NCBI GenBank assembly: GCA_900314335.1
Contig: OMUV01000013.1
Coordinates: forward strand, 1 to 32,483
Length of the DNA stretch: 32,483 nucleotides
From: an uncultured Prevotellaceae bacterium
GTDB lineage: Bacteria; Bacteroidota; Bacteroidia; Bacteroidales; Bacteroidaceae
Direction: 5' to 3'
A program made the position numbers and the translations under genes. Below the pieces are notes generated by a model. It saw only the letters and a program-made list of their open reading frames with translations. It was not told the origin of the DNA and searched no databases. Positions 1,428 through 30,250 of this stretch are shown here, piece after piece (position 1 is the first letter of the stretch; each line of letters begins with the position of its first letter).

Positions 1428-1955
1428 CTAATGCAGGAAATCGAATGTCTGTAGTTTCCTCACCGCGAGCGCATGGCGCTCCTTGTAGGCGAGGCGGTAG
1501 TAGCGCTTGGCCTCGTCGATATTCTGCTCTGTCCCCCAGCCGTGCTCGTAGCATTCGCCTACGCGATAATGGGCATAGGGCAGGCCGCAGCGCTTATAGA
1601 GTCCGAAGGCGCGCACAGGGTCCTTGGGATAGCCCTGCGAACCTTTGCGGAGAATGTCGGCCAGATTGCTCAGCGCCAGATCGTCGCCCTGAGCGGCGGC
1701 GCGCTCGTACCAGAAGACAGCCTTGTTGATGTCCTTGCGGACCAGGACGCCGTTCTCAAAAATATTGCCTAAATTGTTCTGCACGTCCTTGTCCCGCAAT
1801 GCAGGATGCCCGGGATTGTTCTTAAGCAGGTCGAGCAGCCACTCTACATAGTCACGGGTGAAACCGTTATCCTCACAGTTGCCCGAATACGAGAGATAAA
1901 ACTCGCGGTAACACTTCGGAATGTCCGAAAAATCGTCTTTCTTGTCCGTTGTCAT
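1428..1955 (-). CDS. Sel1-repeat (SLR/TPR-like) protein
   Basis: The product is 175 residues, with no signal peptide or membrane segment. From about residue 60 it contains Sel1-like helical repeats: NNLGNIFENG then AVFWYERAAAQGDDLALSNL, then RAFGLYKRC with AHYRVGECYEHGWG, then EAKRYYRLA. Such repeats act as scaffolds for protein-protein contacts; no enzymatic motif is visible. It starts 28 bases after the stop of the upstream WYL gene with no promoter between, so the two are probably co-transcribed and may act together. The partner is unknown. Confidence 0.8.
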   Translation of the reverse strand: MTTDKKDDFSDIPKCYREFYLSYSGNCEDNGFTRDYVEWLLDLLKNNPGHPALRDKDVQNNLGNIFENGVLVRKDINKAVFWYERAAAQGDDLALSNLADILRKGSQGYPKDPVRAFGLYKRCGLPYAHYRVGECYEHGWGTEQNIDEAKRYYRLAYKERHALAVRKLQTFDFLH

Positions 1956-11925: not shown

Positions 11926-12059
11926 CACGCCCCGCGCAAGCATCCCCACGCTTCGCGCAATCATCCTCCCCTGCCTCGCGGGAAAGCCCGTCTCCACGCC
12001 GCAAAGGCCGCTCCCCTACGCCGCCGAAAAGCATCCGCTTCCACGGCCCTGGAAAAGGC

Positions 12060-12236
12060 GGTTTAGGCGCCCTTGTAACATCTTAATTATCAGCGTCCAT
12101 TAGAGGGCCAAAATTACATTTGAGACGTTTTGAACTACCTCAAATGTAGTTTTCCTCAGGTCCTATGTGAGTAACACAGCATGCGGGAGCGTTTTTGCAA
12201 GTGTGGGGAATGGCCTTTCAAAACATGGGAAAAGCA
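12060..12236 (+). repeat. Interspersed hairpin element, copy B
   Basis: The main stem is 12110-12124 with 12139-12153 (one T-G wobble). The conserved TCCTATGTGAGTA and GCATGCGGGA follow, then a T-run and GTGTGGGGAATGGCC. The orientation is opposite to A1/A2. It lies about 60 bases from the end of the AraC remnant. Confidence 0.8.
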
Positions 12237-18860: not shown

Positions 18861-19080
18861 CCGACGACCGACGAATAATAAAGATGAGAATATTCCGGCT
18901 GCGGAGCTGATTGATCAGTTGCGGAGCAGAATAATCCGGTGCGGAGCAGAATATTCCGGCGATAAAGCGGAATAATCCGGCGGTGGAGCTGATTGATCAG
19001 TTGCGGAGCAGAATAATCCGGTGCGGAGCAGAATATTCCGGCGATAAAGCGGAATAATCCGGCGGTGGAGCAGAATATTC
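18861..19080. repeat. 20-bp-phased array with an 82-bp tandem duplication
   Basis: GCGGAG begins at 18901, 18921 and 18941, exactly 20 bp apart, and AATATTCCGG or AATAATCCGG closes each unit. A larger unit of 82 bp (18903-18984) is repeated without visible change at 18985-19066. It lies just after the terminator of the discoidin gene. The short minus-strand frame across it is a product of the repetition. Confidence 0.9.
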
Positions 19081-19099
19081 ACCCGTGCTCGCAGCCTAT

Positions 19100-19281
19100 C
19101 AAAGGGCAATTTTCGGCCCTTTGTAAATTACAGAAAATCAGCGCCTCCAGAAGGCCAAAACTACATTTGAGACGTTTTAAACTACCTCAAATGTAGTTTT
19201 CCTCATGTCCTATGTGAGTATCCCAGCATGCGGGACAGTTTTTTGAATGTCGGGAATGACCTTTTTGAAAAACGGGAAAAG
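19100..19281 (+). repeat. Interspersed hairpin element, copy C
   Basis: The most complete copy. Stem 1 is CAAAGGGC/GCCCTTTG (19100-19107 with 19116-19123). Stem 2 is a perfect 15-bp pair (19157-19171 with 19186-19200). Stem 3 is TCCC/GGGA (19221-19235) followed by six T. The conserved tail GGGAATGAC, then GAAAAACGGGAAAAG, ends it. Confidence 0.85.
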
Positions 19282-19346
19282 TGTGAGATTTTCGAATCGC
19301 GAAATTATATCAGCGAAGCCGGTGATTGAGGGCATACTTTTGGGAC

Positions 19347-19631
19347 GCGATAGCTGGGAGGGCCGTTGCCCTCAACGGCCGCCAGCCGCCGCGTAAGGTA
19401 TTGGAAGGAATAATACGCAATGCGCATCTGCGGCTATCGCGAGTCACTTGCATCGCCAAATTACTTCGCGCATTGCCCTTATTGGGCATGCGGCCGCATA
19501 AAGTATAGAAAGGAATAATGCGCATTCGCGCATCTGCGGCTATTCGCGAATTCCTTGCCTCGCAAATTACTTCGCGCTTTACCCATATCGGGCATGCGGC
19601 CGCTGAGGGCAGCGGCCCTCCCAGCTATCGC
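19347..19631. mobile_element. 285-bp MITE-like unit with palindromic inverted ends
   Basis: The left end GCGATAGCTGGGAGGG (19347) is inverted at the right end (to 19631), and each end contains its own hairpin: 19361-19368 with 19373-19380, and 19598-19605 with 19610-19617. The inverted ends are about 34 bp. Inside are two imperfect direct repeats of about 104 bp (19395-19497 and 19500-19603). No transposase frame is present, so if mobile it is non-autonomous. No target duplication was identified. Confidence 0.6.
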
Positions 19632-19710
19632 CGCGCTCATCTATTTTCTTCGCTCTTATCAACCGCCCCGCATATGGAATATGGTAAAAATGCGCACTTC
19701 TGCGACCCCG

Positions 19711-19890
19711 GGAAGGGCGATTTTGGGGCCTTTGTAAATGTCTGAAAAACAGCTCCCGCGGAAGGGCAAAATTACATTTGAGACGTTTTGAACTACCTCA
19801 AATGTAGTTTTACTCAGGTCCTATGTGAGTATCCCAGCATGCGGGACAGTTTTTTGAATGTGGAAAAATGAGTATTCCGGAAATGGGAAT
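19711..19890 (+). repeat. Interspersed hairpin element, copy D
   Basis: The main stem is 19768-19782 with 19797-19811 (one T-G wobble). The small stem at 19832-19846 is followed by T19850-T19855. The upstream part (AAGGGCGATTTT, CCTTTGTAAAT) aligns with copy C. It lies about 180 bases before the promoter of the radical SAM cassette. Confidence 0.82.
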
Positions 19891-20142: not shown

Positions 20143-20250
20143 ATGCTCATGACGCATTATGCAGAGAGTCCACACTACTACATGAACGCAGGACAAAGAG
20201 CATACGACAGACTTTCAAAACGAGAATATAGCCGCTATGATTTAGCTTAA
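20143..20250 (+). CDS. Possible small peptide gene at the head of the radical SAM cassette
   Basis: A 35-codon frame (in-frame ATGs also at 20149 and 20182) ends 18 bases before the 468-residue gene and on the same strand. The peptide is rich in Tyr (six) and charged residues, and its second half reads AYDRLSKREYSRYDLA. It has no signal peptide or membrane segment. It lies inside the predicted transcript, where a precursor peptide for a modifying enzyme would be expected. A frame this short can easily occur by chance, so the call is tentative. Confidence 0.3.
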   Translation: MLMTHYAESPHYYMNAGQRAYDRLSKREYSRYDLA

Positions 20251-20268
20251 TACCTAAGAGACAATAAC

Positions 20269-21675
20269 ATGAAGACCTTTAAAGAATATCCCGCGACCCA
20301 CTCCATGGCTACCTCCTGGTATGTTGCCGATGAGGATGGCAATGTAGGTATCATTGATTTTGAGGACAACGGCCCCGTGCCCTGGGAGACAGAACAAACA
20401 ATTATCGAAGACCTGGTTTTCGGCCATGAGGAAGGAGATAAATTCATAAGAGTAAACCTGACAGACGATCAGATTTTCGACCTGCTGCAGGATCCTCACT
20501 CACCTGAGGAAGAGGAATTCTGGTATGATTGTTTTGTGCAGATAGACAAAACCCAGGAGGAGGAATTCCTGCATTTAGCCCATAGCAAGGATATCGACTG
20601 CCATGTCATATCAGAGAAGTTGGGGCTGTATAAGATTGATGCAGGCGATTGCTTCCCCAATGTTAATAAATGGACGATAAAGACGGTTATCAAAGATTCC
20701 TCTTTGGGGAAGATGCTCGGGAAAAATATGATTCTGAGGATCTATCATATGAAGGATTACATGGTTTCCGGGGAGTGGCATAACGACAAGTTGGTATACG
20801 AGCACGAATTCGATTCAGCTCCGTACTTCATTTATGGCCAACCTTACTGGCCAGAGCTGCTGGCGGAAAGGATCAACATTCCGGCCGACCCCGTCAAGAT
20901 AAGCCAGTTTCCTGAGAAGCTTCAGAAACGGATCTATCGTCTTCCCGTGAAATTCAGCGAATGCGAGAAATTCCAAATAGCCGAGTGGGTTCCGTGTTCT
21001 GTTTATACGGAGGAAGAGATAGCCATTGATGGCTGCGTATACAGTCTGCTGCCTTTGAGCGACGGTTCAAAAGCCTACGTCCTGACGAACATCAACGCGA
21101 CCGACTTCTTCAAATATTGTTCGGAGAGAGAGAAGCATCATTGCAAGCAGTGCACTGCCGACGAATGCTATTATTGCGACAATTACAGCACTTTTACAGC
21201 GCGGCCTACCGTTATGATGATAATCTATCCTTTCAGATATAAGGACTACGATAAGCGATACATTACGGATGAGATAACCATGCACAGCATAATCCTCCCG
21301 TATCTTCCGAAAGTGCCATGTCCGCCACCTCATAACCATATATTTTTGAATAGCGATGCCAGGAAAGTGGTCTCACTTAAGGAGCTGCATCGTATCTTCA
21401 AAGACAGCCACCGGTATATGGACGACATGCTCAGGCGCTATCGGCCGAGAGTCATCATAATAGGAGAGGATGCTTACGATGCATTGAGTCAGGTCTATCA
21501 GATGGCTGACCATGTCCTGCTTTCTGATGGGGAGGAATTCCCTTACTATATGGAGAAGGAAGTGGAAGCGCACAGAGGCGAAATCGAAAGGCTGGCACAA
21601 CTTCCTTATCAGGGGAAAGTGTTTCCTCAGATTGCCAACAAAGCCCTTCTTGAGAAGAATCACGACGACGAATGA
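20269..21675 (+). CDS. Unrecognised 468-residue protein with a Cys cluster, partner of the radical SAM gene
   Basis: I do not recognise this family. No signal peptide or membrane segment is visible, and the protein is acidic and rich in Tyr, Asp and Glu. The N-terminal part (YPATHSMATSWYVADEDGNV, DNGPVPW) looks like a compact beta domain. A five-Cys cluster at C284, C292, C295, C300 and C303, with nearby His290-His291, could bind a metal or an iron-sulfur centre. The C-terminal region (about 365-465) is helical. Its stop overlaps the start of the radical SAM gene in ATGA, which implies translational coupling and joint function. Base composition is less GC-rich than the core genes, consistent with horizontal gain. 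It could be a substrate-recognition partner or an auxiliary enzyme. Confidence 0.85.
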   Translation: MKTFKEYPATHSMATSWYVADEDGNVGIIDFEDNGPVPWETEQTIIEDLVFGHEEGDKFIRVNLTDDQIFDLLQDPHSPEEEEFWYDCFVQIDKTQEEEFLHLAHSKDIDCHVISEKLGLYKIDAGDCFPNVNKWTIKTVIKDSSLGKMLGKNMILRIYHMKDYMVSGEWHNDKLVYEHEFDSAPYFIYGQPYWPELLAERINIPADPVKISQFPEKLQKRIYRLPVKFSECEKFQIAEWVPCSVYTEEEIAIDGCVYSLLPLSDGSKAYVLTNINATDFFKYCSEREKHHCKQCTADECYYCDNYSTFTARPTVMMIIYPFRYKDYDKRYITDEITMHSIILPYLPKVPCPPPHNHIFLNSDARKVVSLKELHRIFKDSHRYMDDMLRRYRPRVIIIGEDAYDALSQVYQMADHVLLSDGEEFPYYMEKEVEAHRGEIERLAQLPYQGKVFPQIANKALLEKNHDDE

Positions 21676-22421
21676 TAGAACAACTCTCCATAGACCTGTC
21701 AAACTACTGCTCCAAGGAGTGCCCGTTCTGCTACAACCACAGCCGGCGAAGCGGGAACACATTGTGGACGCCGGATGAGGTGATTCATTTCGCGGGCGAC
21801 TGTATTGCCCACGGCGTCAAGGCTGTCTCGCTCGGAGGCGGAGAGCCTTTTGAATACGATGGCATATTCGAGGTCATCGATGCCCTGTTCCCGCAGTGCT
21901 ACCTCTCGGTGACTTCCAACGGCCTTCCTCTGGAGAATCAGGATGTGTGGCAAAGCCTTCAGAGGCATAAGCCCGACAAGATACACATCACTATCCACAA
22001 TCCCGACCTGAAAGAAGAGACCGCAAGGGTGGAAAGCATCCTACCCAGAATCGCGGCTCTGGACATCAAGCCGGGCGTTAATCTGTTGGTCGGGGCCGAT
22101 AAAACGGAAGCCGCAAGAGATGAATATTCGCGCCTGCGGAAAATTCTGAACAGCGATCAGATTATCCTTGTTCCCCAGCGCTTTTCCAATTCTCCATCGC
22201 CCCGGCAGCTCGCCTCTGTCGCGGGCGGGAAACCGTTTCAGAGCCCTTCCTGCCTGTTAGGATGCAGGAAGCCCGATAAATTCTGCTCTGTGTCGTGGGA
22301 CAAGAGGGTGAACTTCTGTAGTTTCTCGCCCCATAAAGTCGCCCTCCGGTCGCTCGATTTCCGGGGGCTTATGGACGGGTTAAAAGATGTGGTGTGGAGC
22401 AGTTGCGCTCATCGCGCCTGA
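21672..22421 (+). CDS. Small radical SAM protein with extra C-terminal cysteines
   Basis: The product is 249 residues. CSKECPFC gives the radical SAM cluster motif CxxxCxxC (C13, C17, C20), and LGGGEP (54-59) is the GGE-type SAM-binding motif. Strands such as YLSVTSNG and KIHITIHN fit the partial TIM barrel. Beyond the core, C194, C198, C205 and C216 resemble a reduced auxiliary-cluster (SPASM/twitch-like) region, but the spacing does not match a full SPASM domain as I know it. It therefore probably cleaves SAM reductively to modify a peptide, protein or small molecule. It starts inside the stop of the 468-residue gene. No transporter, protease or other maturation gene follows, so its product probably acts inside the cell. 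Confidence 0.88.
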   Translation: MIEQLSIDLSNYCSKECPFCYNHSRRSGNTLWTPDEVIHFAGDCIAHGVKAVSLGGGEPFEYDGIFEVIDALFPQCYLSVTSNGLPLENQDVWQSLQRHKPDKIHITIHNPDLKEETARVESILPRIAALDIKPGVNLLVGADKTEAARDEYSRLRKILNSDQIILVPQRFSNSPSPRQLASVAGGKPFQSPSCLLGCRKPDKFCSVSWDKRVNFCSFSPHKVALRSLDFRGLMDGLKDVVWSSCAHRA

Positions 22422-30019: not shown

Positions 30020-30052
30020 AATGAAGGATTGAAAGATTGAAAAAAATTGTCG

Positions 30053-30127
30053 TGGGCGTTGACGGATTCGAACCGCCGACCCTCTGCTTGTAAGGCAGAT
30101 GCTCTGAACCAGCTGAGCTAAACGCCC
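30053..30127 (-). tRNA. tRNA-Val (anticodon TAC), second copy in the transcript
   Basis: A complete cloverleaf: acceptor GGGCGTT/AACGCCC, D-arm GCTC/GAGC, anticodon arm TCTGC-CTTACAA-GCAGA with anticodon TAC (reads GUA), T-arm with TTCGAAT and discriminator A. CCA is not encoded. Confidence 0.95.
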
Positions 30128-30175
30128 GAGAATCGCTTTTCGCCAGATTTTTGCCCCCTCTATCGTATGTCGTGG

Positions 30176-30250
30176 TGGGCGTTGACGGATTCGAACCGCC
30201 GACCCTCTGCTTGTAAGGCAGATGCTCTGAACCAGCTGAGCTAAACGCCC
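30176..30250 (-). tRNA. tRNA-Val (anticodon TAC), first copy in the transcript
   Basis: Identical in sequence to the other tRNA-Val, 48 bases away, and on the same strand. The pair is probably one transcript from the promoter at 30270-30277 to the terminator at 29990-30019. Confidence 0.95.

Follow-up and report, generated by a model that had tools for sequence, protein, structure and literature searches.

The stretch of DNA analysed here (the window, 32,483 nucleotides) comes from a 2.74-Mb draft genome (90% complete) and carries two adjacent genes on its forward strand: gene A (20269-21675, ATG start), encoding a 468-aa partner protein outside any curated family, and gene B (21672-22421, ATG start), encoding a 249-aa radical SAM protein present in a single copy in this genome. 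As pointed out in a preliminary description made from the sequence alone, the stop of A and the start of B overlap in an ATGA (21672-21675), an arrangement suited to translational coupling. The pair is flanked by a large F5/8-type-C-domain protein on one side and a GHL10 protein on the other, with core genes (a RadA-like ATPase, a carbamoyltransferase, a Tyr/Trp-type tRNA synthetase and ribosomal L25) further away. The GC content is 46.6% in A, 55.1% in B and 57.4% in the whole window, and GC3 is 0.57 in A and 0.68 in B, most other genes of the window lying at 0.68-0.87. The lower GC content originally ascribed to both genes is thus strong for A and only mild for B, and, with core functions lying further out and A well below the window as a whole, A-B forms a lower-GC islet.

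Directly upstream of A lies a 35-aa ORF (20143-20250), initially considered a possible peptide, which has no homologue in any related A-B locus, the upstream DNA not being conserved either. The dense repeats reported ahead of the cassette are real (18887-19861), but they are not specific to it since their main element occurs in at least 40 copies genome-wide, and the repeat region was rejected as a part of the system for this reason. This ~149-nt element, with hairpin core ACTACATTTGAG...CTCAAATGTAGT, is a high-copy interspersed repeat found in the window at 19102-19250, 19713-19861 and also 12054-12196, with at least 40 scored copies (299 first-look candidates) in the 2.7-Mb genome, many of them at contig ends. 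Positions 18887-19080 hold a 20-bp/82-bp tandem repeat (GAATAATCCGGCGGTGGAGC..., copies 96% alike). Tandem repeats make up 2.1% of the flanks near A-B loci versus 0.3% of the control, an excess that was set aside because the window and L035 account for most of it. Elsewhere in the window, a 296-bp unit is repeated 2.1 times with 100% identity at the contig start (1-608), probably an assembly-edge duplication, and a tandem tRNA-Val (TAC) pair lies on the reverse strand (30052-30250).

The motif, the Pfam match and structural Z scores of about 20 to known members place B in the radical SAM superfamily. B matches PF04055 (Radical_SAM) at 47.2 bits (cut-off 29.5), and the CX3CX2C motif (C13-x3-C17-x2-C20, 21708-21731) as well as GGGEPFE are kept in 14/14 aligned homologues. 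Its AF2 model (pLDDT 88, pTM 0.87) fits viperin, SuiB, SkfB and MoaA in a tie (Z 19.6-20.2, with Z 20.2, rmsd 2.7 and 221 aligned residues for viperin 5vsm and Z 19.6 for MoaA), and the best profile relatives of solved structure in the PDB are SkfB (1e-8), tetraether lipid synthase (1e-6) and YydG/EpeE (1.3e-6). The C-terminal part (22251-22406) contains five cysteines rather than the four additional ones first counted, although four of them (C194, C198, C216 and C245) are indeed invariant in the 14 homologues, C205 being variable. The seven-cysteine SPASM motif is CX9-15GX4C-gap-CX2CX5CX3C-gap-C, and the twitch type has a single auxiliary cluster with up to four Cys ligands, as described for SkfB and BtrN (PMC6231123). 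With five C-terminal cysteines only, B has no CX2CX5CX3C and hence no SPASM motif; the number of its cysteines agrees with one auxiliary cluster of the twitch type, as does its predicted fold through the match to SkfB, which suggests a twitch-like auxiliary Fe-S site. An identification of B as viperin was rejected, the NCBIfam viperin model NF038283 giving 20.3 bits, far under its cut-off of 180; the PADLOC pVip model gives a weak match (25.1 bits). As the sequence begins directly at the barrel, B has no RRE.

A and B are a genuine unit, paired far beyond chance. B is present in 6/393 genomes of the order, and the A profile finds the same six plus two marginal matches, one with in-frame stops and taken as chance (G503), the other remotely related and located at the edge of a contig (G495, locus L067). 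At other sampling levels, A occurs in 6/301 sampled genomes of the window's family (~2% of the sampled related gut bacteria), and B, among 395 phylum-level genomes, in the window's own genome only. Public genomes contain 14 B-bearing loci. The titles of most homologues read Bacteroidales, Bacteroides, Prevotella, Porphyromonadaceae or Paramuribaculum, which relates the window's genome to Bacteroidales, and one of the 14 loci belongs to a MAG titled Treponema (title as deposited; the contig may be misassigned). Searches of plasmids, phages and viral contigs found no relative of B, and a cargo gene of phages or plasmids was therefore rejected.

In the 22 carrier genomes, all 26 copies detected by the A profile are located at a B locus (26/26). 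Of 18 A-B loci, 14 have overlapping genes (1-14 bp) and the remaining four have a gap of 4-164 bases between them; one locus (L037) has the reverse order B-A with the overlap kept, and another (L035) has an extra gene between A and B. Their distance matrices are correlated (Mantel r 0.66, p 0.0002, n=18), the mean amino-acid distance being 0.72 for A and 0.42 for B, and two copies of A stand beside a single B in L029, L032, L011 and L012. The shared six genomes, the exclusive location of A at B loci, the overlaps and the correlated distances all bear out the proposal that the two proteins act together, and the pair is conserved among variable neighbours across the compared loci. Homologues of A usually have the radical SAM partner, the exception being the distant L067, in whose genome B is undetectable.

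No significant match to A was found in Pfam, NCBIfam, PADLOC or PHROGs, and no solved structure matches A profiles by sequence, so that the protein, unplaceable at first reading, matches no curated family. Its homologues range from 229 to 491 aa. In an alignment of 21 sequences the most conserved stretch is a near-invariant N-terminal tail plus hairpin (residues 1-40, 20269-20388, KEYPATHSMATSWYVADEDGNVGIIDFEDNGPVP) with the near-fixed pattern KEYPATHSMxTxW(Y/F)xxDx(D/E)GN(V/I)...NGPVP, in which P8, A9, H11, S12, T15, W17, D21, G35 and P38 are invariant among 17 A proteins. When the first 50 residues were searched for in other families, the only matches besides A were weak and chance-like, in two larger proteins. 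Residues 1-13 have an AF2 pLDDT below 50, which may reflect true disorder or merely the shallow alignment (15 sequences). The tail is followed by an N-terminal domain common to A proteins, delimited by alignment and AF2 secondary structure (residues 41-252, 20389-21024), within which residues 88-159 appear in a ferredoxin-like strand/helix order. The cysteine cluster of A (C284-x7-C292-x2-C295-x4-C300-x2-C303, 21118-21177) is as previously described, but it is not a core feature of the family: it is absent from L016-L018, L036 and the short A proteins and partial in L020 and L035, and so cannot serve a common function.

A proteins are also mosaic. Between L017 and L018, B is 97% identical, and the A proteins share 88% of their first 40 residues, 22-65% of the middle and 92-100% of the last third; likewise, the tandem A proteins of G023 share 97-100% identity across their last ~80 residues and 35-62% in the central part. 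This pattern is the one to be expected if recombination shuffles a variable central part flanked by fixed ends, chimaeric assembly being possible for a single MAG and less so for both cases.

The second half of A (residues 253-447, 21025-21609) is predicted to have a UDG-like fold devoid of catalytic motifs. Its best structural match by VIA-align is 4zbx (Z 8.6, rmsd 4.1, 151 aligned), and 49 of the best 50 rows are family 4 UDG, UdgX or TDG, the remaining one being a phage polymerase matched over a UDG-sized N-terminal part. Foldseek agrees with a weak E-value (0.013), and matches to viral structures include UDGs and DNA polymerases. Although the Z is modest and the A model has a pLDDT of 77, such agreement on a single superfamily is unlike chance and argues for a UDG fold. 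PF03167 matches neither A nor six of its homologues, and the catalytic motifs GExPG and HPS are absent from the 14 A sequences compared, the GExPG loop position reading IIYPF, VSPY or KAPT and the HPS position mostly (Y/F)P (e.g., FPYY/YPxF). A profile comparison of the C-terminal half of A with three true UDG-family proteins is not significant (prob 1.6), so the link between A and UDGs is carried by the predicted structure and by L067. The ORF of this distant A-like protein consists of two overlapping frames at the contig edge; it matches PF03167 below cut-off (E 0.076), and its profile gives no significant match to the same three proteins either. C292-x2-C295 of A aligns with CAQC of L067, which has further cysteines in CCVKC and NCHPK and resembles a genuine family 4 UDG more closely than A does. 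We infer that A may descend from a protein made of the N-terminal domain plus a UDG, the ancestral Fe-S site having been mostly lost.

In five loci (L014, L019, L031, L032 and L033) A is only 229-370 aa long, ending soon after residue 270 or lacking the UDG-like half, yet these short proteins keep the tail and are still paired with B. The tail and the N-terminal domain therefore constitute the core of A, with the UDG-like half optional.

No third gene is conserved across A-B loci outside one close group (L013, L015, L022 and L023, which share a 243-aa neighbour protein), and no transporter or protease is conserved alongside, in line with the initial reading of the window. Models of 77 different PADLOC families have matches (E<=1e-10) in 127 neighbour genes, versus 26 families in 127 control genes of the same genomes, redundant PADLOC models inflating both counts. 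Among the confirmed neighbours are AbiEi and AbiEii (L036 region), Abi_2 with a SLOG protein (L068), HipA (L074), GmrSD_N (L032), T5orf172 (L033), three WYL proteins, and DUF6361 and helicase proteins (L076, L071), whereas several other loci lie in housekeeping-gene surroundings. The defence-like module envisaged in the preliminary description is thus possible, the neighbours being richer in defence-type genes than the controls, and it is from the neighbourhood that the suggestion comes. Within the window, a Sel1-repeat protein (1428-1955, reverse strand) adjoins a WYL regulator and shares 52% identity with the product of the gene that immediately follows B in L031 (9899-10429). Homologous genes judged RtcB-like by eye occur near A-B in L015 (6882-8127), L017 (5764-6924) and L019 (2-979).

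The reading that we tentatively prefer, at somewhat under even chances, is that of a patchily distributed enzyme-substrate cassette in which B recognises the tail of A and radically modifies A, which then acts inside the cell. B would be a minimal twitch-type radical SAM enzyme with one SAM cluster and one auxiliary cluster; A, its translation coupled to that of B, would be recognised by this enzyme through the conserved N-terminal tail and given a radical modification in the tail or near it, after which A would work intracellularly. The middle of A, varied by recombination, probably sets what A recognises, and the optional UDG-like domain, having lost its motifs, would probably serve in nucleic-acid binding or as a scaffold. 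That A is the substrate, and its tail the site of recognition or modification, is suggested by a fixed tail on a drifting body, by several A per B, by the overlap in both gene orders, by the relationship of B to peptide-modifying enzymes and by the larger distances among A than among B, as for a conserved enzyme with a diverging substrate. Several points count against it: the co-conservation of A and B is also compatible with a heteromeric enzyme, B leaves no space for a peptide-recognition domain of the RRE type, the tie among viperin, MoaA, SuiB and SkfB means that the B model does not fix the class of substrate, and A is large for a maturase substrate, for which anaerobic sulfatase maturation nevertheless provides a precedent. 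As to the cellular role, defence against mobile elements is our leading guess.

It is unlikely, though deserving of some weight, that A and B are instead subunits of one nucleic-acid-directed enzyme in a restriction-like defence, the UDG-like domain of A binding or flipping a base and B acting on DNA or RNA by radical chemistry, for example at a phage-specific base. The predicted fold of A would suit such an enzyme, as would the AbiE, Abi_2, HipA, GmrSD_N, T5orf172 and WYL neighbours and the fact that Brig1 and Brig3, of the UDG superfamily, are known phage defence proteins (PMC11078745, PMC13160076). However, A has neither GExPG nor HPS, and since in five loci A stands beside B without the UDG-like half, the function common to all pairs cannot lie in base binding by that half.

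Less likely still is that B produces a small molecule, such as a modified nucleotide, like viperin or MoaA, with A as a dedicated binding or effector protein: the unsurpassed fit to viperin and the weak pVip match speak for it, but the NCBIfam viperin score is far too low, and the invariant tail and the several A per B would be left unexplained. More of a long shot is a novel type of conflict system inside the cell, with a radical SAM enzyme that would arm or mature a recombination-diversified protein via a fixed N-terminal tag, the motif-less UDG-like domain being an exchangeable effector or nucleic-acid-binding module. A RiPP cassette, with the 35-aa ORF as precursor, B as maturase and A as accessory protein, is nearly refuted: the ORF is directly upstream and B does resemble RiPP maturases, but related loci lack both the ORF and conserved upstream DNA, and there is no RRE, transporter or protease.

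Both the radical SAM class of enzymes and the UDG fold are already known. Neither the A-B pair, nor the N-terminal domain of A, nor the linkage between them appears in the libraries and literature searched, in which no paper on the pair was found; such absence is not proof of priority. To our knowledge, radical SAM maturases acting on large proteins are few, most known ones acting on small precursor peptides, and the enzyme-substrate cassette, if A-B is one, would offer a compact and testable case of radical protein modification.

Among known systems, the twitch/SPASM maturases SkfB, SuiB and EpeE/YydG share with B a radical SAM core followed by C-terminal cysteines, in B putatively for an auxiliary cluster, and the group ranks among its best PDB profile matches (SkfB, YydG) as well as among its best structural matches. 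In contrast with these peptide maturases, B is only 249 aa long, has no RRE and no small precursor peptide, and has as its partner a large protein that contains folded domains. Viperin and pVip are similar to B in size and give an equal-best structural fit, but B falls far below the family cut-off and differs by its four invariant C-terminal cysteines and its constant partner A. The predicted fold of A residues 253-447 is like that of family 4 UDG, UdgX and TDG/MUG, from which A departs in lacking a Pfam UDG match and the two catalytic motifs, its remaining Fe-S cysteines being out of place. Brig1 and Brig3 have the UDG-like fold in common with A, and the best structural match of Brig1 is the UDG of S. 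tokodaii, the same as for A here (PMC11078745), while brig3 belongs to an operon of two genes (PMC13160076). The Brig proteins have glycosylase activity, whereas A has no catalytic motifs, and no radical SAM partner is described for either in PMC11078745 and PMC13160076, whereas A has B. If tied to defence, the A-B pair would bring a step of radical chemistry into bacterial immunity and represent a further immune use of the UDG fold beside Brig1 and Brig3.
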